Program-made: the position numbers and the translations under genes
NCBI RefSeq assembly: GCF_001682385.1
Contig: NZ_CP016210.1
Span: 3,224,001 to 3,288,000, forward strand
Direction: 5' to 3'
Length of the DNA: 64,000 bases
Source: Azoarcus olearius
GTDB taxonomy: Bacteria; Pseudomonadota; Gammaproteobacteria; Burkholderiales; Rhodocyclaceae
Notes under the pieces: model-generated
What the model was told of the DNA's origin: nothing
What the model saw: only the letters and a program-made list of their open reading frames with translations
The model's database searches: none
Part shown: piece by piece, positions 9,470 through 61,354 of the stretch
Position numbering within the stretch: position 1 is the stretch's first letter
Layout of the letters: each line of letters begins with the position of its first letter

Positions 9470-9551
9470 TTGAAGACGGATTTATCGCCATCCTGGGTTT
9501 CAATAAAGTGCCTTCATCGACGCCGGCCCGATGCCGGCGAGGACGCTCACC

Positions 9552-10358
9552 ATGACGACCACGCATCCCGCCCCGCTGCCCACGCTGTTCGTTTCCCACG
9601 GCTCGCCGATGTTCGCCCTCAATCCGGGCGAAGCCGGCCCGGTGCTGGCTGCCTTTGCCGCCCGCGTGCCGCGTCCGCGCGCAGTGGTGGCGGTGTCGCC
9701 GCACTGGATGACGCGCTCGCCCGAAGTGCTCGCGAGCGCGCAGCCGGCCACGGTGCACGACTTCGGCGGCTTTCCGCGCGAACTGTATGCGCTGGACTAC
9801 CCGGCGCCCGGCGCGCCCGGTGTCGCCGCCGAAGTCATCGCGCTGCTCGCCGGCCACGGCGTGACGGTGCAAGCCAACGAACTGGCCGGGCGCGACCACG
9901 GCACCTGGGTGCCGCTGATGCACCTGTATCCGGACGCCGACGTGCCGGTGATCCAGCTCTCGCAGCCGGCCACGCGCTCGCCGGTGGTGCTGCTGGAACT
10001 GGGCCGCGCGCTGGCGCCGCTGCGCGAGCAGGGCATCCTGTTGATGGGTTCGGGCAGCATCACCCACAACCTGTACGAATTCCGCGCGCCGCGCGATCCC
10101 GACGACCACTACGCGAGCGAATTCACCGACTGGATGTGGAACACGATCGCGGCCGGTGACCTCGAAGCCTTGCTCGACTACCGCACCCGGGCGCCGCACG
10201 CGGTGCGCGCCCACCCCACCGACGAGCACCTGTTGCCGCTGTACTTCGCACTCGGCGCCGCGGGCGCGGACTGGACCCGGGCAACCCGGCTGCCCGGCGG
10301 CGTCACCGACGGCGTGCTGGCGATGGACAGCTTCGCGTTCGGCGACGCCACGGCCTGA
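9552..10358 (+). CDS. Class III extradiol dioxygenase, DODA/YgiD-like
   Basis: A 268-residue enzyme of the LigB superfamily, closest to the 4,5-DOPA dioxygenase/YgiD group. Conserved metal-site histidines appear in FVSHGSPM, in VSPHWM and in GSGSITHNLYEF, and DEHLLPL near the C-terminus is typical. The family opens catechol rings using a non-haem metal; the physiological substrate here is unknown. The ATG at 9552 was preferred to 9531 because GAGGA precedes it at suitable spacing and the conserved strand LPTLFVSHGSP follows. It is the first gene of the operon with cytochrome b561 and two YceI genes. Confidence 0.88.
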   Translation: MTTTHPAPLPTLFVSHGSPMFALNPGEAGPVLAAFAARVPRPRAVVAVSPHWMTRSPEVLASAQPATVHDFGGFPRELYALDYPAPGAPGVAAEVIALLAGHGVTVQANELAGRDHGTWVPLMHLYPDADVPVIQLSQPATRSPVVLLELGRALAPLREQGILLMGSGSITHNLYEFRAPRDPDDHYASEFTDWMWNTIAAGDLEALLDYRTRAPHAVRAHPTDEHLLPLYFALGAAGADWTRATRLPGGVTDGVLAMDSFAFGDATA

Positions 10359-10374
10359 TCAGGAGGACGACCGC

Positions 10375-10929
10375 ATGCACACCCCGCCCGCCCATCCCGC
10401 CGCCCGCTACACCGGCACCGCCATCGCGCTGCACTGGCTGATCGCGCTCGCGCTGTTCGCGATCTTCGCGCTGGGCCTCTACATGCACGATCTGCCGCTA
10501 TCGCCGACCAAGCTCAAGCTCTACTCCTGGCACAAGTGGGCGGGGGTGACGGTGTTCGCGCTGGTGCTGCTGCGGCTGGGCTGGCGCGCCACCCACCCGG
10601 CGCCGGCGCTGCCGGCCGCAATGCCGGCCTACCAGCGCGCCGCGGCCGGGGCGATCCACGTGCTGCTCTACGTGCTGATGCTGCTGATCCCGATCAGCGG
10701 CTGGCTGATGAGTTCGGCCAAGGGCTTCCAGACGGTGTGGTTCGGCGTGCTGCCGCTGCCCGACCTCGTCGCCAAGGACGCCACGCTCGGTGACCGCCTG
10801 CAGACGCTGCACTTCGCGCTCAACATGGTGCTGGCCGGTCTGGTGCTGGGCCATGTCGGTGCCGCACTCAAACACCACTTCATCGACCGCGATGACGTGC
10901 TGACGCGGATGCTGCCGCACAAGGCCTGA
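10375..10929 (+). CDS. Cytochrome b561 (YceJ/CybB-like)
   Basis: A 184-residue four-helix inner-membrane cytochrome. Histidines expected to bind two haems are visible: IALHWLIA near residue 20, SWHKWAG, GAIHVLLY, and LHFALN with LGHVGAALKHH at the C-terminal end. Relatives carry electrons between quinone and periplasmic partners. An AGGAGGA site lies before the ATG at 10375, 16 bases after the dioxygenase stop. The next genes encode YceI proteins, mirroring the E. coli yceJ-yceI pair. Confidence 0.93.
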   Translation: MHTPPAHPAARYTGTAIALHWLIALALFAIFALGLYMHDLPLSPTKLKLYSWHKWAGVTVFALVLLRLGWRATHPAPALPAAMPAYQRAAAGAIHVLLYVLMLLIPISGWLMSSAKGFQTVWFGVLPLPDLVAKDATLGDRLQTLHFALNMVLAGLVLGHVGAALKHHFIDRDDVLTRMLPHKA

Positions 10930-10974
10930 ACGCCGAATCACGCGCTGCCCCGACAACCCATCAGGAAGAAGATC

Positions 10975-11544
10975 ATGCCCCGCTCCCGCCCCGCCGCCCT
11001 CGGCCTGCTCGCCGCCAGCCTCGCCCTTTCAACGGCTGCATACGCGGTCGAATTCACCCAGGTGAATGCCGCCGCGAGCCGGGTGGACTTCAGCTACAAG
11101 CAGATGGGCGTCGGCATGGACGGCCGCTTCGGCAAGGCGGATTTCCAGCTCGCCTTCGATCCCGCGCGGCCGGAAGCGGGCCGCGCCGCGATCGACATCG
11201 ACCTAGCCAGCATCGACACCGGCTCGGCCGAGGCGAACGCGGAATCGGCCGCCAAGGCCTGGTTCGACACCGCGCGCCATCCGCGCGCCAGCTTTCGCGC
11301 CACCCGGGTGAAGGCGCTCGGCGGCAACCGCTTCGAAGCCGCCGGCACGCTGACGATCAAGGGCCGCAGCCAGGAAGTCACCGCACCCTTCACCTTCAAT
11401 GCGCAGGGCAACGCCGGCGTGTTCGACGGCAGCTTCGTGCTCCGGCGCAGCGACTTCGGCATCGGCGAGGGCGAATGGGCCGACCCCAGCATCGTCGCCA
11501 ACGAAATCCTCGTGAAATTCCACGTGCAGGCGGCGGCTCGCTGA
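10975..11544 (+). CDS. YceI family periplasmic protein (first copy)
   Basis: A 189-residue protein with a signal peptide (LGLLAASLALSTAAYA) and a YceI lipocalin-like barrel: VNAAASRVDFSYKQMGVG, then HPRASFRATRVKALGG and GTLTIKGRSQEVTAPF. YceI proteins bind isoprenoid or amide lipids; their role is poorly defined. It lies 45 bases after cytochrome b561 and is followed by a second YceI gene. Confidence 0.92.
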   Translation: MPRSRPAALGLLAASLALSTAAYAVEFTQVNAAASRVDFSYKQMGVGMDGRFGKADFQLAFDPARPEAGRAAIDIDLASIDTGSAEANAESAAKAWFDTARHPRASFRATRVKALGGNRFEAAGTLTIKGRSQEVTAPFTFNAQGNAGVFDGSFVLRRSDFGIGEGEWADPSIVANEILVKFHVQAAAR

Positions 11545-11602
11545 GCCCCCGCCGGCCCCGCATTCCCCTTTTCCCCAGCCCCATCCTTCCTACGGAGACG
11601 AC

Positions 11603-12181
11603 ATGAAGAACACCCTCAAGACCCTCGCCCTCGCCACCCTGTTCGCCGGTTTTGCCGGCAGCGCCGCGGCCGCGCCGGAAAGCTATGTGATCGACAACAG
11701 CCACACCTTCCCGCGCTTCTCTTACAGCCACTTCGGCCTGTCCAAGCAGTTGTCGCGCTTCAACAAGACCAGCGGCACCATCGTGCTCGACAAGGCCGCG
11801 AAAACCGGCTCGGTCGATGTCACGATCGACATGAAGTCGGTCGACACCGGCTTTGCGCTGTTCGACGAGCACATCCAGGGCGCGGATTTTCTCGATACCG
11901 CCAGCCATCCGACCGCGCGCTTCAAGTCCACCAAGGTGCGCTTCGAAGGCGACAAGCCGGTCTCGATCGACGGCGAGCTGACGATCAAGGGCATCACCCG
12001 CCCGGTCACGCTGCAGGTCACGTCCTTCCTCAACATGCCGCATCCGATGCTGAACAAGGACGCGATCGGCGCCAACGCCACCACCGTTATCAAGCGCAGC
12101 GAATTCAACGCCGGCAAGTACGCCCCCCACGTGGGCGATGAAGTGACGCTGGACATCGCCGTCGAAGCGATCAAGGGCTGA
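11603..12181 (+). CDS. YceI family periplasmic protein (second copy)
   Basis: A 192-residue protein with a cleavable signal peptide (ALATLFAGFAGSAAAA) and a complete YceI domain: YVIDNSHTFPRFSYSHFGL, VDTGFALFDEHIQGADFLD, ELTIKGITRPVTLQV. It is closer to the canonical E. coli YceI length and motif set than the preceding copy, so the two have diverged. It is the last gene of the LysR-linked operon and is followed by a strong stem-loop. Confidence 0.94.
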   Translation: MKNTLKTLALATLFAGFAGSAAAAPESYVIDNSHTFPRFSYSHFGLSKQLSRFNKTSGTIVLDKAAKTGSVDVTIDMKSVDTGFALFDEHIQGADFLDTASHPTARFKSTKVRFEGDKPVSIDGELTIKGITRPVTLQVTSFLNMPHPMLNKDAIGANATTVIKRSEFNAGKYAPHVGDEVTLDIAVEAIKG

Positions 12182-12210
12182 TTTCCGCCCCTCTCGCAGC
12201 AATCCACACC

Positions 12211-12236
12211 CGCGGCGGGCCTTTTTGCCCGCCGCG
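12211..12236 (+). terminator. Stem-loop after the YceI operon
   Basis: CGCGGCGGGC (12211-12220), loop CTTTTT, GCCCGCCGCG (12227-12236): a perfect 10-base stem 29 bases after the second yceI stop. The T run is in the loop and only CCTT follows, so intrinsic termination is likely but not classical. Confidence 0.6.
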
Positions 12237-12309
12237 CCTTGTCAGCGGCGAAGACGCTGGGCAAGAATGCGCCGTTGCGCTACCCCTCGGCGCGTTCTCC
12301 ATAACAACA

Positions 12310-13602
12310 ATGCCCTTCTTCACCCAGCATCCGCTGCGGCAGACGCTCAGCGACGAAGTCCACGCCCGCCCCCACCTTCCGCTCGATACGCCGGAGTTCA
12401 TCAGCTATCTCGCCTTCCTGCATCACGAGGGCAGCGCCGAACGCGAAGGCGCCCACATCCAGTCGCTGGCCGAGCAGTTCGGGCTGCCACTGCCCGCCAC
12501 CGACAGCGGCCACCTGTCGCTCGACTGCGGCGGCTTCCGCCTGAAGTGGGAGCGCCACAACGAGTTCTCCAGCTACACCTTCTTCCGCCGCATCTCGCCT
12601 GCGGACGTGGGCGACGAACACGCGCTGCTGGCGGTGCCCGCGGCCTGGCGCAAGGACATCCCGGGTCAGCTGATCACTGCCACCCATATCGAACTGCGCA
12701 GCGCCAGGGACGTGCCGCCGGACACGGTGATGGTGCAGGTTTCGCCGCGCGGCAAGACGGTCGTCGGCTCGCGCATCGCCGACGGTGCCGGCTGGGTGTT
12801 CACCGATTTCCACCTGCATGAGGGCTTCTCGCGCTTCCTGGTGCTGGACGAAGGCCTCACACCGCGCCAGGCCGGCCGCACCGTGCAGCGCCTGGTCGAG
12901 ATCGAAACCTATCGCGTGATGGCCCTGCTCGCGTTCCCGGTGGCCAAGGAGGTCGGCCGGCTGCTGTCGCGCGCCGAAGACGAACTGGCCGACCTGATGG
13001 ACCGCATGGGCGAAGCGCGCAACGCGGAAGACGACCGCCAGGTGCTCGGCCGCCTGACCCGCCTCGCCGCCGAGGTCGAGCGCTCGGTCGCGCGCACCAC
13101 CTTCCGCTTCGGCGCTGCCGGCGCCTATTACCAGCTGGTGCGCCAGCGCATCGACGAACTGCGCGAGGAGCGCCTGGCGGGCATGCCGACGGTGCGCGAG
13201 TTCATGGAGCGCCGCCTGACCCCGGCGATCAACACCTGCGCCTCGATCGCCCGCCGCCAGGAAGACCTCTCCAGCCGCATCGCACGCAACTCGCAACTGC
13301 TGCGCACGCGGGTGGATATCGAGCTGGAGCGCCAGAACCAGGAACTGCTGGCGCAGATGAACCGGCGCGCCAAGATCCAGCTCCACCTGCAGGAAACCGT
13401 GGAAGGCCTGTCGGTGGTGGCGATCACCTACTACGCCTCGCAGCTGGTCAACTACATGGCCAAGGGCGCCAAGCACCTGATCGAGCCGGCCACGCCGGAA
13501 CTGATCACCGCCGCCTCCATCCCGGTCATCGCCATGCTGGTCGCGCTCGGCCTGCGGCGGATGCGCAAGGCGCTGGCGGCCGAGGACGGCGGCGGGCATT
13601 GA
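12310..13602 (+). CDS. DUF3422 family membrane protein
   Basis: A 430-residue protein of the DUF3422 family, recognised by its N-terminus (LSDEVHARPHLPLDTPEFISYLAFLH) and by SSYTFFRR near residue 80. The middle third is helical and charged. Two membrane segments close the protein (VVAITYYASQLVNYMAK and a segment around IPVIAMLVALGL). No activity is known for the family. It stands alone between a terminator and a repeat-filled spacer. The arginine-rich, coiled-coil-like segment before the helices may mediate oligomerisation. Confidence 0.9.
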   Translation: MPFFTQHPLRQTLSDEVHARPHLPLDTPEFISYLAFLHHEGSAEREGAHIQSLAEQFGLPLPATDSGHLSLDCGGFRLKWERHNEFSSYTFFRRISPADVGDEHALLAVPAAWRKDIPGQLITATHIELRSARDVPPDTVMVQVSPRGKTVVGSRIADGAGWVFTDFHLHEGFSRFLVLDEGLTPRQAGRTVQRLVEIETYRVMALLAFPVAKEVGRLLSRAEDELADLMDRMGEARNAEDDRQVLGRLTRLAAEVERSVARTTFRFGAAGAYYQLVRQRIDELREERLAGMPTVREFMERRLTPAINTCASIARRQEDLSSRIARNSQLLRTRVDIELERQNQELLAQMNRRAKIQLHLQETVEGLSVVAITYYASQLVNYMAKGAKHLIEPATPELITAASIPVIAMLVALGLRRMRKALAAEDGGGH

Positions 13603-13620
13603 CGCAGCTTGCTTCTCACT

Positions 13621-13948
13621 CTTCAAGGCGGTGAGGACGGGGTTTCGGCGAGCATCGCTCGCCGCCGGCCGAACGACAGCGCCTCCTGGCACTGGCTACC
13701 GGGCTGGGGTGGGGATGGGATATCGCGGCGCTGCGCCTGACCCCATCCCCCACCTAGCCAGTAGTCTCGGCTGCGCCTCGCCGCTCCGCCGGCATCGAGC
13801 AGTGCTCGATGAAACCCCTGCTCCGCCCCCCTTGAAGGGGGAGGAACGTGAATCTCCTGGGCAGTCGTCTCGGATTCGCGTCGCCGCTCCACCGGCATCG
13901 AGCAGGGCTTGCCGAAACCCCGGCCAAACCCCCTTGAAGGGAGAGGAG
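13621..13948. repeat. Intergenic repeat block, three copies
   Basis: This fills most of the 365-base spacer between the DUF3422 gene and the purC promoter. Two direct copies lie 103 bases apart (13759-13844 and 13862-13948). Each contains CGCCGCTCC, CCGGCATCGAGCAG, GAAACCCC and CCCCCTTGAAGG. A third copy lies in inverse orientation at 13621-13670 (CTTCAAGG, GGGGTTTCGG). Between the inverted copies, 13703-13720 and 13741-13758 form a long imperfect hairpin. The arrangement resembles a REP or MITE-like element rather than coding DNA; no credible gene is present. Confidence 0.6.
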
Positions 13949-13967
13949 TAAAAGCAGCGCGCTCACC

Positions 13968-13973
13968 TATAAT
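13968..13973 (+). promoter_or_regulatory. -10 box TATAAT of purC
   Basis: A consensus TATAAT followed by CGCG. The predicted start of transcription near 13980 leaves about 20 bases before the GTG at 14001, which argues against the TTG at 13980 as the start codon. Confidence 0.75.
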
Positions 13974-14000
13974 CGCGTTTTGCTCTCAGAGACCCCTTCC

Positions 14001-14936
14001 GTGGCCACCCCGCTTTTCGAATCCACCATCAAGAGTCTGCCGCTGCTCGGGCGCGGCAAGGTCCGCGATATCTACGCCGTCGACGCCGACAAGCTGCTGA
14101 TCGTCACCAGCGACCGGCTGTCCGCCTTCGACGTGATCCTGCCTAACCCGATCCCCGACAAGGGCCGCGTGCTCACCGCGATGGCCAACTTCTGGTTCGC
14201 CAAGCTCGGCCACATCGTCCCCAACCAGCTCACCGGCATCGATCCGGAATCGGTGGTCGCCGCCGACGAGCGCGAGCAGGTCAAGGGCCGCGCGCTGGTG
14301 GTCAAGCGCCTCAAGCCGCTGCCGATCGAAGCGGTGGTGCGCGGCTACGTCATTGGCTCCGGCTGGAAGGACTACCAGGACACCGGCGCGATCTGCGGCA
14401 TCGCCTTGCCCGCGGGGCTCAAGCAGGCAGCCAAGCTGCCGGCGCCCATCTTCACCCCGGCCTCCAAGGCAGAAGTCGGCGATCACGACGAGAACATCTC
14501 CTTCGCCCAGGCACAGGCCAACTGCGACGCGGTGCTCGCCGAAGCGCTCGCCGGCACCGGCAAGACTGGCGCCGGGCTGGCCGAGGAAGCCCGCCAGGCC
14601 GCGATCGCGCTGTACAGCCAGGCAGCCGACTATGCCGCCGGCCGCGGCATCATCATCGCCGACACCAAGTTCGAGTTCGGCATCGATGGCGCCGGCACCC
14701 TGCACCTGATCGACGAGGCGCTGACGCCGGATTCGTCCCGTTTCTGGCCGGCCGACAGCTACCGCGAGGGCATCAGCCCGCCGTCCTACGACAAGCAGTA
14801 CGTGCGCGACTATCTGGAAACGCTGGACTGGAACAAGAAGGCGCCGGGCCCCAACCTGCCCGCCGACGTCGTCGAGCGCACCGCGGCGAAGTACCGCGAA
14901 GCCTACGAAAAGCTCACCGGCCTGACGCTGGCCTGA
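14001..14936 (+). CDS. purC: Phosphoribosylaminoimidazole-succinocarboxamide synthase
   Basis: A 311-residue SAICAR synthetase that condenses CAIR with aspartate using ATP in purine synthesis. Family segments are present in order: [41 protein letters not shown] and DTKFEFG. The C-terminal part has the [14 protein letters not shown] and [14 protein letters not shown] motifs of the longer yeast-like type. GTG at 14001 was chosen because the consensus -10 box at 13968 places transcription start near 13980; a TTG at 13980 would be at the message end. A clear terminator follows, so it is monocistronic. Confidence 0.95.
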
Positions 14937-14956
14937 GCCGGCGCACCGCCCGGCCA

Positions 14957-14990
14957 CGCCGCCCGCGCCCTGTGCGCCGGCGGCGTTTTT
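14957..14990 (+). terminator. Intrinsic terminator of purC
   Basis: Arms CGCCGCCCGCGC (14957-14968) and GCGCCGGCGGCG (14974-14985) pair with one mismatch around a 5-base loop and are followed by TTTTT. It lies 20 bases after the purC stop and faces the convergent toxin gene. Confidence 0.85.
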
Positions 14991-15006
14991 CATTTCGGCG
15001 TGGCGC

Positions 15007-15738
15007 TCAGTCGTGAAAGGCGAAGGTCCAGCGCTCGGCGCTGAGGTCGCGCTGCCATACGGTGAGGTGAGGCGGCTGGATCAGCAGCGTCCATCCCTGC
15101 TGGTTGTTGCGATAGGGCTCGGCGACGGCGCGGAACACCTCCGGGCCCAGCAGCGCCACACACAAGCCGCCCGGGTGTCGCACCGACTCGTAGCGGATTG
15201 CCTGCGCCCCGCCTTCGCGCGCGGCGAGCGCCAGCGCCTGCGTCGCGCTGTAGTCGTCCGGATGGGTCCATGCCGCACGCCCGGCCGCGAGCGGCGGCTG
15301 CGTCAGATCGAGCGCCGCGTTGGTCGCGGCCCAGAATTCGAACAGCGTGATCGGCACCGCGCGCGGACGTTCGCTCAGGAAGCTGCTGTCGCGCCAGAAA
15401 CGCAGCCGCCAGTAGCCGCTTTCGGCGCAGGCCGTTTCGCGGCTTTCCGCTCCATAGAACACACCTGGGTCCTCGCGCCGGCGAAAGCGCGATCCGCCGG
15501 GCAGCGGCCAGTAGCGGAACGGCGTGGCGAGCAGCCAGTGCAGGCCTTCCGCGGCGGGCGGCAGTTGCGGCTTGTGCGCTTCCAGGATGTCTTCGAGCAG
15601 GGTCTGGCGCGCCAGGTCGCCACCGGCCAGCCCCATGGTGGCAACGCGGTGCTGCGCCTCCACCGCACGCCAGCCCGAGCCCGCCCAGGGCCGCAGTTCA
15701 GACGCGAGCGCGGTGGGCGTCCAGGTATTCGCAGACAT
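15007..15738 (-). CDS. RES domain toxin
   Basis: A 243-residue RES-domain protein. Visible family segments are SRFRRREDPGVFYGAESRET around residues 83-102, AVPITLFEF and the C-terminal GLCVALLGPEVF. RES toxins of the ParT/MbcT/Res type deplete or modify NAD+ or transfer ADP-ribose. An N-terminal region of about 70 residues precedes the core, longer than the minimal toxins. It overlaps the upstream Xre/MbcA-like gene by 41 bases, the standard antitoxin-first order. Which chemistry this member performs cannot be told from the sequence. Confidence 0.88.
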   Translation of the reverse strand: MSANTWTPTALASELRPWAGSGWRAVEAQHRVATMGLAGGDLARQTLLEDILEAHKPQLPPAAEGLHWLLATPFRYWPLPGGSRFRRREDPGVFYGAESRETACAESGYWRLRFWRDSSFLSERPRAVPITLFEFWAATNAALDLTQPPLAAGRAAWTHPDDYSATQALALAAREGGAQAIRYESVRHPGGLCVALLGPEVFRAVAEPYRNNQQGWTLLIQPPHLTVWQRDLSAERWTFAFHD

Positions 15739-16078
15739 GCAGCAAGCCGTCGATGCGCTTCATCAGTTCGATTGGCGTACGCCCCGCGAATGCCGCGTTG
15801 GCCGAGCGCAGCCAGCCGCGCGCCAGTTCGTCGTCGCCGCCGACCAGCGAGAACAGCGAGCGGTAGAGCCGCACCAGATGGACCGACAGCTCCCACTCCT
15901 TCGCGGCCTCGCGCAACTGGTAGGCGCCGCGCAACAGCCGCGATGCCGTGGACTGGCTGACGCCGACGATCTGTCCCATCTCGGTCGGCCCGATCCGCAG
16001 CCGCGCGGCCGCTTCGGCCACCGCCTGGGTCAGCACCGCCGAGCGCTCCGCCGAAACGGCGGGTGCCTGCTGAAGCAT
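15698..16078 (-). CDS. Xre/MbcA/ParS-type antitoxin
   Basis: A 126-residue antitoxin. The N-terminal Xre-like helix-turn-helix contains MGQIVGVSQSTASRLLRG, and the C-terminal DUF2384 toxin-binding domain contains RSLFSLVGGDDELARGWLRSAN and RTPIELMKRIDGL. The ATG at 16078 is preceded by GGAGG five bases upstream; a GTG at 16102 would place that site inside the gene. It should neutralise the RES toxin and repress the shared promoter (family knowledge). An imperfect dyad at 16089-16108 is a possible operator. Confidence 0.9.
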   Translation of the reverse strand: MLQQAPAVSAERSAVLTQAVAEAAARLRIGPTEMGQIVGVSQSTASRLLRGAYQLREAAKEWELSVHLVRLYRSLFSLVGGDDELARGWLRSANAAFAGRTPIELMKRIDGLLHVCEYLDAHRARV

Positions 16079-16088
16079 CACATCCTCC

Positions 16089-16108
16089 GAATTTGTAGCC
16101 ACACATTC
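16089..16108. promoter_or_regulatory. Imperfect dyad upstream of the antitoxin
   Basis: GAATTTGTAG (16089-16098) and CCACACATTC (16099-16108) match as inverted halves at 8 of 10 positions. The dyad ends about 10 bases before the antitoxin ATG and touches a TATAGA/TAGAAT -10-like stretch, so binding would block transcription. It is a candidate autoregulatory site. Confidence 0.4.
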
Positions 16109-16285
16109 ATTCTATAGCATACCTGTGCGCCCGTTGCCGGCGTTTCGACGCCGCCGGCCGTCCAGCTGCGGCCAGCCCGTGGGTAAACCCGGTCGCGAAT
16201 CCCTGTCGGCTGTTCTAGATTGAGTAGCAACCCGGAGCGCTCCCGCCAGAGGAGCGCGGCGTATTTTTCCCCGCAGGAGGTCGCC

Positions 16286-17059
16286 ATGAACAAGTCCTAT
16301 CCGGCTCTGGACCACCACTTCCACCTTCCCCACATCCGTGAGGTCGGCGCCTCGCGGCCGCTGTACTGGCTGCGCATGGGCTGGGCCGACCTGCGCGACA
16401 ACCCGGTGCCCAGTCTCAGCTACGGGGCCGCGCTGGCCGTACTCGGTTACCTGATCCTGGCCTACGCCTCCAACCTGCCGTATCTGTTCACCGCGGCGAT
16501 TTCCGGCTTCTTCCTGGTCGGACCGATTGCCGCCGCGGGGCTGTACGAGATGTCGCGGCGGCGCGAACGCGGGCTGCGCACCGGCCTGCGCGACTCGCTG
16601 ATGGGCCTCGGCCGCCACGGCGACACGCTGCTCTACTTCGGACTGGTGCTGGCGGTTGCGCTGATCGGCTGGGAGCGCATCTCGGCAATCCTGTTCGCGC
16701 TGTTCTACGACGGCAATGTGCCCGACCTCGGCAACTTCGCCAGCACGGTGTTCCTGTCCGGCGAATACACCCGCTTCGTGATCGCCTATCTGGTCGTCGG
16801 CGGCGCACTGGCGGCGACCGTGTTCGCACTGTCGGCGATGGCGATCCCGATGCTGATCGACCGTGAGACCGACACCGTGACCGCCGCGATGACCAGCGCC
16901 AAGACGGTGGGCATCAACCCCGCGGCGATGATCGTCTGGGCGGCGATGATCGTGGTGCTGATGGCGATCGGCTTTGCCACGATGATGATTGCGATGGTCG
17001 TGCTGCTGCCGCTGGTCGGCCACGCCACCTGGCACGCCTACCGCGACATGGTCGAGTGA
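16286..17059 (+). CDS. DUF2189 family integral membrane protein
   Basis: A 257-residue protein. A soluble start carries LRMGWADLRDNPVPSLSYG, the typical DUF2189 entry. About six membrane helices follow, including AVLGYLILAYAS, YFGLVLAVALIGW, YLVVGGALAATVFALSAM and a glycine/methionine-rich C-terminal pair. Its function is unknown. An AGGAGG site lies six bases before the ATG at 16286. A hairpin with a T tract follows, so the gene is a single transcription unit. Confidence 0.88.
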   Translation: MNKSYPALDHHFHLPHIREVGASRPLYWLRMGWADLRDNPVPSLSYGAALAVLGYLILAYASNLPYLFTAAISGFFLVGPIAAAGLYEMSRRRERGLRTGLRDSLMGLGRHGDTLLYFGLVLAVALIGWERISAILFALFYDGNVPDLGNFASTVFLSGEYTRFVIAYLVVGGALAATVFALSAMAIPMLIDRETDTVTAAMTSAKTVGINPAAMIVWAAMIVVLMAIGFATMMIAMVVLLPLVGHATWHAYRDMVE

Positions 17060-53296: not shown

Positions 53297-53938
53297 TCAG
53301 CCGCGGGCGAGGTTGCCCAGCACCGCGCGCCGCAGTTCGCGCTTGAGTTCGTCCAGCGGGATTTCGCGCCCCGCCAGCCGCGCCTGCACGGCCCGCGACG
53401 ACATCACCAGCGAGTAGGCGCCCACCAGCGCAATCTGCAACACCACCGGATCGGCCTCGGCCAGCACGCCGGCTGCCATCGCCTCGCGCCACAGCGGCCC
53501 GCAGGCTTCCACACCCGGCCGGATCAGGCGCTCGACGAGGTAGTCGAGCCGCTCCCCCGGTTCCGCGAACTCCCGCGTCACGAAACCCAGTTGTGCCGGA
53601 GAATCGGCGAGGTGATCCATCATGCAGTCGGTCAGCCGCCCGACACGCTCGGCCGCCGGCAACGGCGCTGCGATCACGCTGCGCGCCTCGACCAGCCAGC
53701 TTTGGTGGCGCAGCACCACCTGCTCCGCCACCGCCCGCCACAACCCGGCCTTGGAGCCGAAATGGTGGGCCACCATGGACGCGTCGCACCCCGCCTCCGC
53801 CGCGATCAGGCGTAAACCCGCGCCGTCGAAGCCGAGCCGGGTGAAGGCCTGCAGGGCGGCGGCAAGCAGCCGCTCACGACAGTCGCCACCGCCGCCGCGG
53901 GGACGGCCTGGACTGCGCGGCACCGTGGTCGGGGACAT
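53297..53938 (-). CDS. TetR family regulator of the export operon
   Basis: A 213-residue TetR-type repressor. The N-terminal helix-turn-helix is RLIAAEAGCDASMVAHHFGSKAGLWRAV, and a C-terminal ligand domain resembles CecR/YbiH-type members (residues 80-200). It is the last gene of a minus-strand operon with two ABC permease genes, an ATPase fusion, an adaptor and an outer-membrane factor, and starts 5 bases after the last permease. A palindrome in the operon promoter (60508-60521) is its likely operator, so the operon would be autoregulated. Confidence 0.9.
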   Translation of the reverse strand: MSPTTVPRSPGRPRGGGGDCRERLLAAALQAFTRLGFDGAGLRLIAAEAGCDASMVAHHFGSKAGLWRAVAEQVVLRHQSWLVEARSVIAAPLPAAERVGRLTDCMMDHLADSPAQLGFVTREFAEPGERLDYLVERLIRPGVEACGPLWREAMAAGVLAEADPVVLQIALVGAYSLVMSSRAVQARLAGREIPLDELKRELRRAVLGNLARG

Positions 53939-53943
53939 GAGGG

Positions 53944-55149
53944 TCAGGCCATCTGGCTGAGGGATTTGCGGAAGCGGGCCAGCGCGACGCCGAAAAACAC
54001 CGCCCCGATCGCCAGGATCGCGAGGAACTGCGGCCACACGACGTCCAGCCCGGCCCCGCGATAGAGGATGGCCTGCGCGGCTGCCACAAAGTGTGTGGTG
54101 GGTGCCGCCAGCATGATCTGCTGCGCCAGCTCGGGCATGCTCTCGCGCGGGGTGGAACCGCCCGACAGCAGTTGCAGCGGCAGCAACACCAGCAGCATCA
54201 GCAGGCCGAACTGCGGCATCGAGCGCGCCAGCGTCGCCATGAAGATGCCCATGGAGCTGGTGGCGAACAGGTGCAGCGTGACGCAGGCCAGGAACAGCGC
54301 CACCGAGCCCTCGATCGGCACCTGCAGCGCGCCCTCCACCACCGTCTTCAGCGAGATGGCGGTGGCCACCAGCACCACCAGCCCCATCGCCCACACCTTG
54401 GCCAGCATGATCTCGGCCGGCGTTACCGGCATCACCAGCAGGTGTTCGATGGTGCCGTGTTCGCGCTCGCGGATCAGCGCGGCGCCGGTGAGGATGATGG
54501 AGAGCATCGTGACCTGGTTGATGATTTCCATCAGCGAGCCGAACCAGGCGCGCGTCAGGTCGGGGTTGAAGCGTGCGCGCAGCACCAGATCCACCGGCAG
54601 CGTGCCGGCGCTGCGGTAGCGCTGCACGAACTCGTTCACCTCGCCGAGCACGATCTGCTGGATGTAACCGGCGCCGGTGAAGGCCTGGCTCATGCGCGTC
54701 GCATCGACGTTGAGCTGCAGCGCCGGTGCGCGGCCGGCCAGCACGTCGCGCTGGAAGTCGGGCGGGATGTCGAGCACGAAGGTGTAGCGGCCCGCGTCCA
54801 TGCCGGCATCCATTGCCTCCAGCGACACCCGCTCGGGCGGAGTGAAGTGCGGCGGATAGAAGGCCGAGAGGATGCGGGCCGACAGCGGCGAACCGTCCTC
54901 ATCGACGACCGCGATCGAGGCGTTGTGCAGCGTTTCCGGCATCGCGGTGGCGGCGGCGTAGATGGCGATGGTGAAGGTGTAGGCGATCAGCACCAGCATC
55001 ATCGGGTCGCGCCGCAGGCTCCAGAGTTCCTTGATGCCGAGGCGGTAGATGTTGGCGGCACGACGTCGCCACGCCGCCGGGCGAGCGAGGGCGGCGGCGT
55101 CCGGTGAGTCGGGCGTGTGCGCTGTCATGGCTGGGGTTCCCGGCAGCAT
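53944..55149 (-). CDS. ABC-2 type permease (YhhJ-like)
   Basis: A 401-residue membrane protein of the ABC-2 family. An N-terminal helix (PMMLVLIAYTFTIAIYAAATA) precedes a periplasmic segment of about 150 residues, then five C-terminal helices including FLACVTLHLFATSSMGIFMATL. VEREHGTIEHLLVMPVTPAEIMLAKVW-type sequence (here REREHGTIEHLLVMPVTPAE) is the ABC-2 signature. It follows the ATPase/permease fusion by 9 bases, matching the E. coli yhiI-rbbA-yhhJ order. Starts at 55149 or 55128 are both possible. Confidence 0.9.
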   Translation of the reverse strand: MLPGTPAMTAHTPDSPDAAALARPAAWRRRAANIYRLGIKELWSLRRDPMMLVLIAYTFTIAIYAAATAMPETLHNASIAVVDEDGSPLSARILSAFYPPHFTPPERVSLEAMDAGMDAGRYTFVLDIPPDFQRDVLAGRAPALQLNVDATRMSQAFTGAGYIQQIVLGEVNEFVQRYRSAGTLPVDLVLRARFNPDLTRAWFGSLMEIINQVTMLSIILTGAALIREREHGTIEHLLVMPVTPAEIMLAKVWAMGLVVLVATAISLKTVVEGALQVPIEGSVALFLACVTLHLFATSSMGIFMATLARSMPQFGLLMLLVLLPLQLLSGGSTPRESMPELAQQIMLAAPTTHFVAAAQAILYRGAGLDVVWPQFLAILAIGAVFFGVALARFRKSLSQMA

Positions 55150-55158
55150 CGGTTCATC

Positions 55159-57927
55159 TCAGCGCTCCTGCTTCTTCAGCAGCGCGATCGACAGCCCGAT
55201 GATCACGGGCGCGGCGACGGCCATCGCGAGAAACGCGTCCTGCAGATCGCCCAGCCCCAGCGCCTTGGTGAACACCCCGCGGCTGATGGTGAGCAGATGT
55301 GTGGCGGGGTAGATCTCGCCGATCGCCCGTCCCACGCCCTCCAGCGAGGACACCGGGTTGAGCAGGCCGGCGAACTGCACCGCGGGCAGGATGGTGCCGA
55401 TGATGGCGACGAAGATCGCCGCGATCTGGCTGCGGGTGAAGGTCGAGGCGAACAGCCCGAAGCCGGTGGAAAACAGCACGAACACCAGCGCCGCCAGGGC
55501 CAGCGTGGCGAAGTCGCCCTTCACCGGCACGCCGAACAGCGTCACGGCCAGCAGCGTCATCAGCAGGAAGTTGAGCATGCCGAGCGCCACGTAGGGCAGT
55601 TGCTTGCCGATCAGGAATTCGGCGCGCGTGACCGGCGTGACGTACAGGTTGAGGATGGAACCCAGCTCCTTCTCGCGCACCACCGCCAGCGCGGTCAGCA
55701 TGGCGGGGATCATCAGCAGCAACAGCGGAATCACCGCCGGCACGATGGCCGGCAGGCTGCGCACGTCCGGGTTGTAGCGGTAGCGGGTCTCGATCGTCGC
55801 GGCGGCGATGCCGAGCGTGCTGCCGAAGCGCGTCCGCGCCATCTCCAGCAGCCACGCCTGGTGCATGCCGGCCACGTAGCCCTTGGCCGTCTCGGCGCGC
55901 TGGGGCATGGCGCCATCGATCCACGCGGCGATCTGCACCGTCTTGCCACGCAGCAGGTCGCGGCCGAAGCCCGGGGGAATTTCGATTGCGACCGACAGCT
56001 CGCCGCTGCGCATGCGCCGATCGAGTTCCGCATGGTCGGCAATCGGCGGGCGTTCGGTGAAATAGCGCGACCCGGCGAGATTCAGCGTGTAGTTCTGGCT
56101 GATGCCGGACTGGTCGCGGTCGAGCACCGCGAAGTTGAGGTTTTCGACATCGAGCGTGATGCCGTAGCCCATGATCAGCAGCAGGAGCAGGCTGCCGAGC
56201 AGCGCCAGCGTGCCGCGCACCGGATCGCGCGTCAGCTCCAGCGCCTCCCGCCGCGAGTAGCTGAGCGCCCGCGCGGGACTGAAGGCGCGCCGGGGCGCGG
56301 CGAGCGTTGGAGCAGCCGGCGCGGCATCGGCCGGCGCGGCCGCCGCTTCGTTGCCTGCCGCCTGCCCGGCCTGCGCGCCTGCGTCTTCCAGCCATGCGAT
56401 GAACGCCGCCTCCAGCGTCGCCGCGCCGCGCGCCTTCACCAGCGCCGCGGGTGCGTCGCTGACCAGCACGCGGCCGGCATGCATCAGCGAGATGCGGTCG
56501 CAGCGCTCGGCCTCGTTCATGAAGTGGGTAGAGATGAAGATCGTGACCTTGTCCTCGCGCGCGAGGCCGATCATCAGGCGCCAGAAGCTGTCGCGGGCGA
56601 CCGGATCGACGCCGGAAGTCGGCTCGTCGAGGATGAGCAGGTCCGGCTTGTGCACCATCGCCACCGCCAGCGACAGGCGTTGGCGCAGACCCAGCGGCAG
56701 TTGCTCGGGCAGGCTGTCGAGCACCGCGCCGAGGTCGAAGCGCGCGCTCATCTCGGCCACCCGCGCGGCGATCGCCGCCTCCGGCACGTCGAAGAGGCGC
56801 GCGTGCAGCACCAGGTTCTGGGCGACGGTAAGTTCGGAATAGAGCGAGAACGACTGCGACATGTAGCCCACCCGGCGGCGGGTGTCGATATCCGCTGCAT
56901 CGACCTTGCGCCCGAACAGCCAGGCCTCGCCCTCGCTCGCCGGCAGCAGGCCGGTCAGCATCTTCATCGTGGTCGATTTGCCGCAGCCGTTGGAGCCGAG
57001 AAAACCGAAAATCTCGCCGCGGCGGATGCGGAAGCTGACGTGGTCGACCGCGGTGAAGTCGCCGAAACGCATCGTCAGCCCGCGCGCTTCGATCGCGATC
57101 TCGTCGCGCTCGCCTTCGGCCAGCGGCGGCACCACCACCGCGCGGTGCCCCCGCCGGGCCGACTCCGGCAGCAGCGCGATGAAGGCCGCCTCCAGCGTCG
57201 CCGTGCCGGTGCGTTCATGCAGTTCGCGCGGTGAGCCCGTGGCAAGCACACGCCCCGCATTCATCGCGACCAGCCAGTCGAAACGCTCCGCCTCGTCCAT
57301 GTAGGCGGTGGCGACGATGACGCTCATGCCCGGACGGCCGCGACGGATGCGCGCGATCAGCGTCCAGAACTGGCTGCGCGCCAGCGGATCGACCCCGGTG
57401 GTGGGCTCGTCGAGAATCAGCAGCGCCGGATCGTGGATCAGCGCGCAGCACAGCCCGAGCTTCTGCTTCATGCCGCCCGAGAGCTTGCCGGCCGGGCGGT
57501 CGAGGAAGGGATCGAGGCCGGTCGCGCGCGTCAGGTCGTCAATGCGCCGGCGACGCTCGCCGGCGTCGTGGCCGAAGAGGCGGCCGAAGAACTGCAGGTT
57601 CTCCTCCACCGACAGCGTCGGGTAGAGGTTCTTGCCCAGGCCCTGCGGCATGTAGGCGATATGCGGGCAGACCCGGGCGCGGTGACCGGCGTCGGCCATG
57701 CTGCCGCCCAGCACCTCCACCGCACCCGCCTGCAGGGCCCGCGCGCCCGCCACCAAAGACATCAGGCTGGACTTGCCGACGCCGTCCGGGCCGATCAGGC
57801 CCACCATGCAACCCGCGGGAATCTCGAGGTCGATGCCGTCCAGCGCCAACGTGCTGCCATAGCGCAGGCCGACCCCGGCCAGGCGCACCACCGGCGCGCC
57901 GCGGTCGGAGCCGGCAGTCGTGCTCAT
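55159..57927 (-). CDS. RbbA-like fused double ABC ATPase/permease
   Basis: A 922-residue fusion. The first ABC ATPase (residues 10-230) has Walker [11 protein letters not shown], signature [11 protein letters not shown] and Walker [14 protein letters not shown]. The second (about 265-500) has [12 protein letters not shown], a signature-like [12 protein letters not shown] and [13 protein letters not shown]. An alanine/proline linker leads to an ABC-2 permease domain (residues 560-920). The layout equals E. coli YhiH/RbbA. The second signature lacks the canonical SGG. It overlaps the adaptor gene by 4 bases. Substrate unknown; drug or lipid export is a guess. Confidence 0.9.
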
Positions 57928-58997
57928 TCCGGAACCCGTATCGCCAGTTCAGCGGGCCAGCTGGCGGCGGGGTCGAGCTTGACCCATGCGACCCCGGGCA
58001 GCCCGGTCTTCACCTGCGTCAGGTGCTTGCGCAGCAGTTCGGGCGGAATCTGCGCCTTGACGCGGAACATCAGCTTCTGCCGCTCGCTCGCGGTTTCGAC
58101 TGTCTTCGGCGTGAACTGCGCCGTGCTGGCGACGAAGGAGATGCTGGCGGGGATCACCAGGGCGGGGGCGGCGTCCAGCACGATGCGCGCCTCACCGCCG
58201 AGCGCCACCCGGCCGGCAACGGTCTCGGGCAGGAAGAAGGTCATGTAGACGTCGGCCAGATCGACCAGGTTGAGCACCTTGCCGCCCGCGCCCAACACCT
58301 CGCCCGGCTGCGCGACGCGAAACTGCACGCGGCCGTCGCGCGGCGCCTTCAGCTGGCTGTCCGCGATGTCGGTGTCGATGCGGGCCACGGTGGCTGCGGC
58401 GGCATCCACGGTGGATCGCGCGCCGACCAGTTGCGCCCGCGCGGCGGCGATCGCGGCGCGCGCGGCGGTGACCTGCGCCCGCGCCGCCCCCAGCGCGGCC
58501 TCGGTGCTGCGCAAACGGGCGCGGTCGTCATCCAGCTCCTGGATGGATGCGGCGCCTTCACCGGACAAGGTCTGCGAACGCGCCAGCCGGCGTGCGGCGG
58601 CATCGACCTCGCTTTCACGCTGCCGGACCACGGCTTCGGCAGCCGCGAGGTCGCTTTCGCGCACCGCCACCTGGGCTTCGGCACTGCCGACCGCGTTGAT
58701 CGCCTGCTGATGGCGCGCCGCCGCTTCGTCGCGCTGCGCATTGAGGCCATCGACCTGCATCTGCGCCAGCACGTCGCCCGCCTTGACGAAATCGCCCTCG
58801 CGCGCACGGATGTCCACGATGCGACCGGCAAGTTTCGTGGCAACGTCGATCTCGGTCGCTTCGATGCGGCCGTTGCCGCTGGCGAAGCCCTCGCCCGGCC
58901 CCTCCTGCCGCATCGAATACCAGGTCACCACGCCGACCACCGCCACCGCCGCCAGCGCTGCCGGGACAATCCACGTCTTCCTGAATGCAGATTTCAT
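57924..58997 (-). CDS. HlyD family periplasmic adaptor (YhiI-like)
   Basis: A 357-residue membrane-fusion protein. One N-terminal helix ([20 protein letters not shown]) is followed by the lipoyl half motifs [18 protein letters not shown] and [15 protein letters not shown], a long coiled-coil hairpin (residues 95-200) and a C-terminal barrel. It would bridge the inner-membrane ABC unit to the outer-membrane factor. The ATG at 58997 has AAGGAG 11 bases upstream; a GTG at 59006 is closer to the site but spaced only 2 bases. It lies 15 bases after the outer-membrane gene. Confidence 0.92.
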
Positions 58998-59012
58998 GAT
59001 CCGCACAGCTCC

Positions 59013-60467
59013 TTATCTGGGCGTCCGTTCCGACTCCTGGGCGCCGCCGCCCAGTGCTGCATACAACGCGACCCGGCTGGACAGCAGCGCGCGACGCGTC
59101 TGCACCACCTGCTGCTCCGCGGCAAGCAGGTCGCGCTGGGCGTCGAGCACTTCGAGATAACGCGCCGCGCCGTTGTCGTAGCGCAACTTGGCGAGGCGCG
59201 CGCGTTCGACCTGGGTGGCGAGCGCAGCACGCTGGATGCCGAGCTGCGCCTCCAGCCAGTGCCGCGCGGCAAGCGCGTCGGCCACCTCGCGGAAGGCCTG
59301 CTGCACCGTCTTCTCGTAACTGGCGACGGCAAGATCGCGCCGCACCTCGGCGAGATCGAGCCCGGCGCGGTTGCGGCCGGCATCGAAGATCGGCAGCGAG
59401 ATCGTCGGCGCGAAGCGCCATGCGCCGCTGCCGGGTTCGAACAGCCCGTCGAGCGCGGCGCTCGCGCTGCCGGCCGACGCGGTCAACGCGATGCGGGGGA
59501 AAAACGCAGCCCGCGCCGCGCCGATACTGGCGTGGGCCGCCTTCAGGCGGTGCTCGGCGGCGACGATGTCCGGGCGTCCCGTCAGCAGTTCGGACGGCAG
59601 CCCCGCATCGAGTTCGTGGAGGATGAGGTCGTCGTCGAGGCGGGTTGCCGCGGCGGGCAGGTCGAGCGGCGCCCCCACCAGCACCGCCAGCGCATGTGCC
59701 TGCAGCGCGCGCGCCTGTTCGAGCTGCGCGCCCAGCGCCTGGGCCTGCGTCAACAGCGTTTCGACCTGGGCGAGATCCAGTCGAGAGGTCGCCCCGACCT
59801 CCACGCGGCGGCTGAAGATGCGGAACGATTCCTGGCGGGTGTCGATGGTGCGCTGCGCCAGCACGATGCGCTCGTCCAGTTCGCGCAGCGTGAGGTAGGC
59901 ATCGGCAACCTGGGCCACCACGCTGACGGTGACGGCGCGACGCGCCGCCTCGGTGGCAAGGAACTCCTCCAGCGCCGCGCCTTCGAGACTGCGCACCCGC
60001 CCCCACAGGTCGAGTTCCCAACTCGCCAGGCTGATGCCCATCTGGTACTGGCCGCTGGTCACCGCCTCGCCGGTGATGCTGAGGTCGGCTGGCGTGCGCC
60101 CGCGCACGCCTTCGAAACCGAGCCCCACGGTGGGAAAGCGGTCGGCACGCCGGATGCCGAAGGCGGCACGCGCCTCCTCGACCCGCAGCACCGCGGCGCG
60201 CAGATCACGGCTGTTATCCAGCGCCTGGCCGATCAGGCGGCGTAGCGCAGGGTCGGCGAAGTAGTCCTGCCAGCCGGTGTCGGCCGCACGCTGCGCGGCC
60301 GGCGCCACCGGGGCGTCGGCCGGATAGCGGCTTTCCACCGGCAGGGCCGGAAGCTCATAGGGCGGCGCAAGCGAGCAGGCAGCAACGCCTGTCAGCGCGA
60401 GACCGAAGACCACCGGACGCAACCAGGGCCGCAACCTGCTCCACCGCGGGTATCCGCATACGCTCAT
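59013..60467 (-). CDS. NodT/OprM-type outer-membrane efflux lipoprotein
   Basis: A 484-residue TolC-family protein. A lipobox-bearing signal (LALTGVAAC) would anchor the mature N-terminal Cys. Two repeated OEP domains follow (residues 75-265 and 285-470) with motifs YQMGISLASWELDLWGRVRSLEGAA and TGRPDIVAAEHRLKAAHASIGAARAAFFP. It is the first gene of the export operon; the promoter with an internal palindrome lies 36 bases upstream. Together with the adaptor and ATPase it completes a tripartite efflux pump. Confidence 0.93.
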   Translation of the reverse strand: MSVCGYPRWSRLRPWLRPVVFGLALTGVAACSLAPPYELPALPVESRYPADAPVAPAAQRAADTGWQDYFADPALRRLIGQALDNSRDLRAAVLRVEEARAAFGIRRADRFPTVGLGFEGVRGRTPADLSITGEAVTSGQYQMGISLASWELDLWGRVRSLEGAALEEFLATEAARRAVTVSVVAQVADAYLTLRELDERIVLAQRTIDTRQESFRIFSRRVEVGATSRLDLAQVETLLTQAQALGAQLEQARALQAHALAVLVGAPLDLPAAATRLDDDLILHELDAGLPSELLTGRPDIVAAEHRLKAAHASIGAARAAFFPRIALTASAGSASAALDGLFEPGSGAWRFAPTISLPIFDAGRNRAGLDLAEVRRDLAVASYEKTVQQAFREVADALAARHWLEAQLGIQRAALATQVERARLAKLRYDNGAARYLEVLDAQRDLLAAEQQVVQTRRALLSSRVALYAALGGGAQESERTPR

Positions 60468-60502: not shown

Positions 60503-60531
60503 ATTATCCAACACCTGTTGGGAAACGACAA
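60503..60531 (-). promoter_or_regulatory. Promoter with palindromic operator, export operon
   Basis: On the minus strand, -35 TTGTCG (60531-60526), 17 bases, -10 GATAAT (60508-60503). The spacer carries the perfect palindrome CCAACACCTGTTGG (60508-60521), with 6-base arms around two bases. A repressor bound there would block polymerase. The operon encodes a TetR protein at its end, its obvious candidate binder. Confidence 0.7.
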
Positions 60532-60793: not shown

Positions 60794-60822
60794 TTTCCAT
60801 ATAGCTGGTATGCAAAGATAAT
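60794..60822 (+). promoter_or_regulatory. Predicted promoter of the minor pilin operon
   Basis: -35 TTTCCA (60794-60799), 17 bases, -10 GATAAT (60817-60822), 32 bases before the fimT start, in the only AT-rich stretch of the area. The weak -35 would suit an activator-dependent promoter. Confidence 0.5.
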
Positions 60823-60853: not shown

Positions 60854-61354
60854 ATGCGCCCAAAGTCTTATCACTCAGGTATTGCGGCGAGAACCGGGGG
60901 CCGCGGGTTCACGCTGGTCGAGATGATCGTCGTGCTCGCACTGATCGGCATCCTGGCGGGCATCGCGGTGCCGGCCTTCGATTCCATCATTGCCCGCACC
61001 CGGCTCTCCACCGCGGCCAACGACGTCCTGCTCGGCCTCAACGTCGCCCGCAGCGAGGCGGTGCGCCGCAATGCCACGGTGTACTTCTGCCTCGCCGATG
61101 CCGGCGGACGCTGGAGCGTCCATCAGGTCGCCGGAGACGAGATCCGCGAAGGCGCGCTCCCGCCCTCCATTACGGCCGACACCAACAATCTCGATACCGG
61201 ACTGCTCGCGGACTTCGCCTGCGTGCGGTATCGCCCCGACGGCCTCGCATACGGCGCCGGCAGCGTGCTGATGACCAACGGCGAAATCACCCTCACCCTC
61301 GGCACCAGCAGCCGGGTGGTCAATGTCCGGACCGGAGGCACTTATGTCGGCTAG
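60854..61354 (+). CDS. fimT: GspH/FimT-type pseudopilin
   Basis: A 166-residue type IV pilin-like protein. The prepilin cleavage motif RG/FTLVEMIVVLALIGILAG lies at residues 16-35, with the invariant Glu at position 5 of the mature protein. A GspH-like beta domain follows. FimT proteins initiate pilus assembly and in some species bind DNA. It is the first gene of the pilus cluster and overlaps pilV by 11 bases. The long leader of 16 residues is typical of minor pilins. FimU cannot be excluded. Confidence 0.9.
   Translation: MRPKSYHSGIAARTGGRGFTLVEMIVVLALIGILAGIAVPAFDSIIARTRLSTAANDVLLGLNVARSEAVRRNATVYFCLADAGGRWSVHQVAGDEIREGALPPSITADTNNLDTGLLADFACVRYRPDGLAYGAGSVLMTNGEITLTLGTSSRVVNVRTGGTYVG

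Follow-up and report, generated by a model that had tools for sequence, protein, structure and literature searches.

An inverted repeat that overlaps a promoter may be the operator of a local repressor, the site of another regulator, or an accident of base composition. We address this question for a short palindrome upstream of a putative exporter operon of Azoarcus olearius, lying in a stretch of 64,000 nucleotides (hereafter, the window). The operon occupies the minus strand in the order nodT-hlyD-rbbA-yhhJ-tetR, with all genes nearly abutting (Table 1). The product of rbbA matches the RbbA equivalog model NF033858 at full length (profile positions 1-909 of 909). The adaptor scores 136.9 bits against PRK03598, under the cut-off of 393, and we take it to be YhiI-like from its position; the permease is presumably yhhJ-like, a name assigned by position and from general knowledge. 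Since only five bases separate yhhJ from tetR, the latter should be co-transcribed with yhhJ. An earlier note on this DNA had stated that the operon encodes a TetR protein, and the domain match of its last gene bears this out.

Table 1. Genes of the exporter operon and elements of its predicted promoter (window coordinates).
Feature	Position	Strand	Basis
nodT-type outer-membrane efflux channel, first operon gene	59013-60467	-	TIGR01845, 404.7 bits (cut-off 210.05)
HlyD-type periplasmic adaptor	57924-59006	-	PF13437, 52.7 bits (cut-off 22.2)
rbbA, fused ATPase-ATPase-ABC2 permease	55159-57927	-	NF033858, 1577.1 bits (cut-off 1050)
ABC-2 permease, yhhJ-like	53944-55149	-	PF12698, 119.2 bits (cut-off 31.6)
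TetR-family regulator, last operon gene, predicted operator binder	53297-53938	-	PF00440, 37.1 bits (cut-off 24)
-35 hexamer TTGTCG	60526-60531	-	promoter scan and choice of the best -35/-10 pair
-10 hexamer GATAAT	60503-60508	-	promoter scan; overlaps the right half-site of the operator
Core palindrome CCAACACCTGTTGG	60508-60521	.	marked in the earlier note
Predicted operator, 22 bp, 9-4-9 inverted repeat TTTCCCAACAGGTGTTGGATAA	60504-60525	-	motif and matrix comparison

Upstream of the nodT start codon (ATG at 60467), the minus strand carries the promoter-like site TTGTCG-TTTCCCAACAGGTGTTG-GATAAT. Sigma-70-type promoters were defined as two hexamers 16-18 bases apart that agree with the consensus at 9 or more of their 12 positions; this site, with its 17-base spacer and 9 matches, is of that kind and, being a consensus match, constitutes a predicted promoter. 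It is the only such site on the minus strand between 52000 and 61000, where both strands together contain two, against a mean of 0.6 in shuffled sequences. The second one (TTTCCA-17-GATAAT, 60794-60822, plus strand) is situated upstream of genes starting at 60854 that, judged by eye, resemble minor pilin genes.

The core palindrome consists of exact arms, CCAACA and TGTTGG, around the 2-base center CC. Rereading the sequence confirmed its previously described location between the two hexamers at 17-base spacing, with its outermost base shared with the -10 hexamer as the first base of GATAAT. The proposal that this palindrome is the repressor site needs an extension: it stands as the core of a conserved site, and the full unit is larger, a 22-bp inverted repeat that spans the gap after the -35 hexamer through five bases of the -10 hexamer. 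The left outer arm of this repeat in the window is imperfect (TTTCCC against the consensus TWATCC).

Taken alone, the palindrome is weak evidence, because perfect 6-bp inverted repeats are common in the window: there are 41 with a 2-base gap and 36-54 at every other gap length between 0 and 8. We estimate the chance that a given spacer contains a 6-bp inverted repeat of any sequence at one to a few per cent. The search for further genomic copies, suggested along with the original observation, found the exact 14-mer core once in the 4.45-Mb genome and its reversed control not at all. A looser 14-bp core, with at most one mismatch allowed, has 20 places genome-wide against 42 for the reversed control, and hence the core alone carries no signal. 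The 22-bp motif at three or fewer mismatches has a single place in the genome, the window site itself (2 mismatches). A single match is likewise obtained with the reversed control pattern, so this uniqueness is not strong by itself. By the same three-mismatch criterion, the predicted regulon in this genome comprises the exporter operon alone. It is conservation in relatives that raises the window palindrome above the chance level.

The distribution of the regulator was assessed in counts that all include the window's own genome. The window TetR has matches at 1e-20 in 9 of 150 genomes of the same family, and it is present in 4 of 4 genomes of the genus. Across the order, matches at 1e-30 were found in 2 of 399 genomes. 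A 13-row TetR profile matched 24 of 395 family genomes at 1e-35 and 2 of 369 genomes of the class at 1e-30. Given so few matches in the order and class, the footprint described below is that of one family. Two loci came from genome contigs, L013 from Azonexus hydrophilus and L014 from Pseudothauera nasutitermitis; L067, on a contig as long as that of L014 (160527 bases), was taken for a duplicate and left out.

The gene order of the window recurs in L013, L014, L015, L018, and L019. The tetR gene is transcribed divergently from nodT in L021, L071, L073, L074, L078, and L079, and from hlyD in L023, L024, L069, L072, L075, L076, L077, L080, and L081. A version of the 22-bp motif, with the consensus TWATCCAAC-RNNY-GTTGGATWA, precedes the first exporter gene in these 20 loci, i.e., it is kept whether tetR is the last gene or a divergent one. 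Five loci of genus g36 have two sites each, which face nodT and tetR, respectively, and the coordinates place a second, lower-scoring match close to the tetR start in L024 and L069. The motif also adjoins the solo tetR genes of L016 and L017. Altogether, some version of the site was observed near 27 of 28 tetR genes of this clade (27 places from the 395-genome profile search plus L013), including altered versions in L020, L022, and L068; the sole exception is the second clade tetR of L080, which has no such site within 260 bp. Sequence, length, and promoter position of the site recur in seven labelled genera and in L013. In the congeneric loci L018 and L019, whose TetRs are 48 and 47% identical to that of the window, the operon and TetR are intact, the right arm of the operator is decayed, and the operator is located about 2.8 kb upstream of rbbA; regulation in these two loci may be weakened. 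Two other exact matches to the looser 14-bp core (L025, L026) were rejected as candidates; they fall within long open frames and are devoid of the extended arms.

Sites were ranked by a symmetric leave-one-genus-out matrix, from which the genus being scored was withheld. The operator is the top-scoring position of its own locus in 20 of 21 cases; in L079, only the sister site before tetR scores higher. This ranking is not fully independent, as the matrix sites were picked by a consensus that had first been noticed in part of these loci. In the window, the operator scores 29.6 versus 5.2 for the next position in 64 kb, and the lowest scores (16.3-17.5) belong to L018, L019, and L079. The position relative to the promoter is likewise preserved: 20 of the 21 exporter sites have the triplet TTG starting 6-10 bases ahead of the operator, compared to 248 of 3885 shifted stretches (6.4%). 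The best -35/-10 pair was also chosen for each of 26 sites, five of which belong to loci with other or additional neighbours and were oriented toward the gene that they face; L017, at a contig edge, was left out. Of these sites, 24 had a TTG-type -35 hexamer, the exceptions being L013 and L078. The operator began 0-3 bases past the -35 hexamer, and the two hexamers were 16-18 bases apart; these figures come from an uncontrolled best-of-many choice of hexamers. The window, L014, and L015 share the layout of TTGTCG or TTGCCG, 17 bases, and GATAAT. Sites of genera g36, g44, g48, and g67 have poor -10 hexamers (TGAAAT, TGGAAT, or AATAGT), and the operator fits cleanly between the two hexamers mainly in the window's genus, L014, L016, L020, and L022. 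This clean layout places the operator within the footprint of the polymerase itself, which points to repression.

The association of the motif with the regulator was evaluated against rbbA genes of the same family that lack this TetR beside them. Of 40 such places, upstream stretches were taken for 39 and scored for 37, G090 (no stretch) and L150 and L151 (no rbbA start found) being left out. Each locus was scored by its best 22-bp match within a stretch of at most 6 kb preceding rbbA; five of the 37 control stretches do not extend to 6 kb, with L126, L128, and L153 under 2.1 kb, and these may fall short of the operon promoter. The best matches of 18 loci holding the TetR, located 1.1-3.6 kb from rbbA, had 1 (three loci), 2 (four), 3 (five), 4 (three), or 5 (three) mismatches, whereas those of the 37 controls had 5 (two), 6 (six), 7 (twenty), or 8 (nine), i.e., at least 6 in 35 of 37. 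The groups touch at five mismatches, with the holders L018, L019, and L072 on one side and the controls L140 (G057) and L144 (G115), both from genera with holders, on the other. Nine more holder loci, in which no rbbA start could be used, were scanned whole and had 1-4 mismatches.

Eight scored controls come from the same genera as exporter-linked holders (g36: G133; g48: G048, G139; g57: G057; g62: G112, G147; g67: G067, G115), and these have 5-8 mismatches. In seven of the eight, no TetR match was found at 1e-15, and G115 has a single match, at 3e-17. Thus, the motif follows the TetR, rather than the pump or simply the taxon. Two control genomes, G020 and G081, have a clade TetR elsewhere, with an altered operator beside it. 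The other 36 contain only weak TetR matches, in seven genomes (E from 3.3e-23 to 7.9e-17), and we take these for other TetRs. At the rbbA places of G020 and G081 (G020:C1:1895830 and G081:C10:182110), the motif is absent, and a different TetR-like match is found about 1.2 kb beyond rbbA; several lineages of TetR may thus have become associated with exporters of this type. The control L140, which has the genus label of L014, has a partial match, TAATCCAACCCTTGGATGATTT, with 5 mismatches about 1.0 kb upstream of rbbA, possibly a remnant of an operator after the loss of tetR, or a chance match.

At the protein level, the helix-turn-helix domain TetR_N (PF00440) was found in 13 of 13 members of alignment A1 at E 0.001 or better. 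The AlphaFold2 model built from the 13-row alignment (pLDDT 88.8) has ten helices in the TetR fold, all-helical with a short N-terminal helix-turn-helix and a helical C-terminal domain. The best Foldseek matches in the PDB are TetR-type regulators by title, with a putative fatty acid metabolism regulator (6azh) at rank 1, E. coli CecR (9i1x) at rank 5, and RutR at rank 7. The CecR_C domain PF09209 scores 22.7 bits, below its cut-off of 24, in the window protein; it is detected at E 0.001 or better in 5 of 13 clade members, with L024 reaching 25 bits. The CecR equivalog NF008587 gives 28.1 bits against a cut-off of 365. With the CecR cut-offs failed, we classify the window protein as a member of the TetR family that is distantly CecR-like and is not CecR.

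The recognition-helix region reads D(V/A)SM(V/I)(A/S)H(H/Y/F)F in most clade members, accompanied by CCAAC-type half-sites; in L080, which contributes two helices, the assignment of each to its gene is ambiguous. The helix DVAMIFHHF of L020 and L022 goes with altered half-sites, and the distant L082, with the helix AHGLIRHYF, has another palindrome, TTATTATAC-GAAT-GTATAATTA (8 of 9 pairs). However, the half-sites are altered also in L068 and L070, the helices of which (DVSMLAHHF and NVSMVSHHF, respectively) are near-standard, so that the pairing of helix and half-site is suggestive and falls short of proof.

Comparison with known systems puts this arrangement in context. CecR of E. coli (YbiH), the subject of the work of Yamanaka et al. 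(2016), is treated in passages of PMC7190983 and PMC6790063. As in the window, a TetR-family gene is clustered in E. coli with genes of an HlyD adaptor and an ABC-2 exporter (ybhGFSR), and the two regulators are similar in sequence (32% over 135 aa) and in fold (9i1x). A perfect 9-4-9 palindrome of the same geometry is situated close upstream of the cecR start codon (L083, 7158-7179); as all 9 pairs are also formed in 51 of 3000 random pieces of 270 bases, it is a lead only. On the other hand, the half-site of that palindrome is different (CTTAATCAA), cecR is the first gene of its cluster and not the last, the transporter consists of YbhF, YbhS, and YbhR instead of a fused RbbA and a permease, and nodT is absent. 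The E. coli yhiI-rbbA-yhhJ cluster encodes the same transporter type, the window RbbA fitting the equivalog model, but in contrast to the window it presumably includes neither tetR nor nodT.

TetR, AcrR, MtrR, and QacR are TetR-family autorepressors of efflux pumps. The window regulator resembles such autorepressors, as described in general in PMC6790063 and PMC3511530, in its TetR_N domain, a predicted palindromic operator overlapping the promoter, and an exporter as the presumed target; it differs from them in the operator sequence and in that its gene is probably co-transcribed as the last one of the operon. Promoter-overlapping palindromes and neighbouring targets are described as common in the TetR family in the same two publications. 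For 372 TetR-family genes of three streptomycetes, PMC3511530 reports a divergent orientation in 67% and likely co-transcription with an adjacent gene in 15%. The literature was surveyed in part, and no publication describing the present operator was found in it; among the matches listed for the motif letters, all look unrelated by title.

We therefore consider it most plausible, with a probability of roughly 0.9, that the site is the operator of the TetR whose gene closes the operon. For a site located between the -35 and -10 hexamers, autorepression is the natural interpretation, as was suggested at the outset, and it is supported by the association of motif and TetR (18 holders versus 37 controls) and by retention of the motif beside tetR genes with different neighbours. 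A TetR dimer is predicted to bind the 22-bp inverted repeat, probably with one subunit per 9-bp half-site. The bound dimer would cover the gap between the hexamers and most of the -10, block the promoter, and shut out RNA polymerase, and nodT-hlyD-rbbA-yhhJ-tetR would be kept nearly off, with the inclusion of tetR providing negative feedback. A ligand, probably an exporter substrate or a linked metabolite, would free the repressor and turn on the tripartite ABC exporter.

Three other explanations were considered. The site might serve some other regulator, either global or of the TetR family, with the local TetR acting elsewhere. The weaker TetR matches in seven control genomes and the second gene in each of G020 and G081 speak for it, as related specificities are possible. 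Yet the motif occurs where members of this TetR clade are encoded, and in a matching position, rather than wherever the transporter is: it stays beside the solo tetR genes of L016 and L017, is at 5-8 mismatches in the eight rbbA operons from holder genera that are without this TetR, and is missing where G020 and G081 have the other TetR-like match past rbbA, so this assignment seems unlikely to us. Still less probable is that the local TetR binds here chiefly as an activator or a dual regulator. CecR, labelled a dual regulator in RefSeq, is among the closest structural matches, but activators usually bind upstream of the -35 hexamer, and a site across the gap between the hexamers normally excludes the polymerase.

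Finally, the palindrome could have arisen by chance from the AT-rich composition of the promoter, and the abundance of 6-bp repeats noted above (41 with a 2-base gap) would agree with that. Recurrence of the same sequence, length, and promoter position in seven labelled genera and L013, set against at least 6 mismatches in 35 of 37 controls, makes a coincidence extremely improbable. Autorepression by the local TetR is thus very probably what the locus encodes, a control circuit of an ordinary kind that is now well supported.

Members of the TetR clade have neighbours other than the exporter. In L020 (10827-13336), the operator lies between the clade tetR and divergent genes for a phasin (PF09361) and PHA synthase (PF07167), and L022 has the same phasin-phaC arrangement, its site being judged by resemblance. 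In L070 (G689, 9479-16926), phasin-phaC-hlyD-rbbA-yhhJ stand in a row behind a single operator. A second, solo TetR in the window's genus (L016, 3412-4377, G086) faces a pagL-type gene for lipid A 3-O-deacylase (PF09411), and the operator there is located inside TTGACC-18-GATAAT. In L068, the nearest facing gene seen, which encodes DUF6781 and is followed by an ABC1 kinase gene, has its start about 0.7 kb away. The window's own genome has three PhaC matches and no further operator at three or fewer mismatches.

The location of the operator before exporter, phasin-phaC, or pagL genes in different relatives suggests a metabolite signal, though this is far from proof. We regard it as a doubtful, but not negligible, idea that the clade senses a (3-hydroxy)acyl or envelope-lipid metabolite rather than comprising drug-sensing pump repressors. 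To our knowledge, the function and control of RbbA-type tripartite exporters are poorly known, and the present analysis offers a predicted regulator-operator pair for one of them. The 22-bp motif can be used in sequence searches for further targets, and its occurrence before exporter, PHA storage, or pagL genes provides a lead to the ligand. If the regulator indeed responds to an acyl or envelope-lipid compound, the exporter would be a part of acyl or envelope homeostasis and not of drug resistance.
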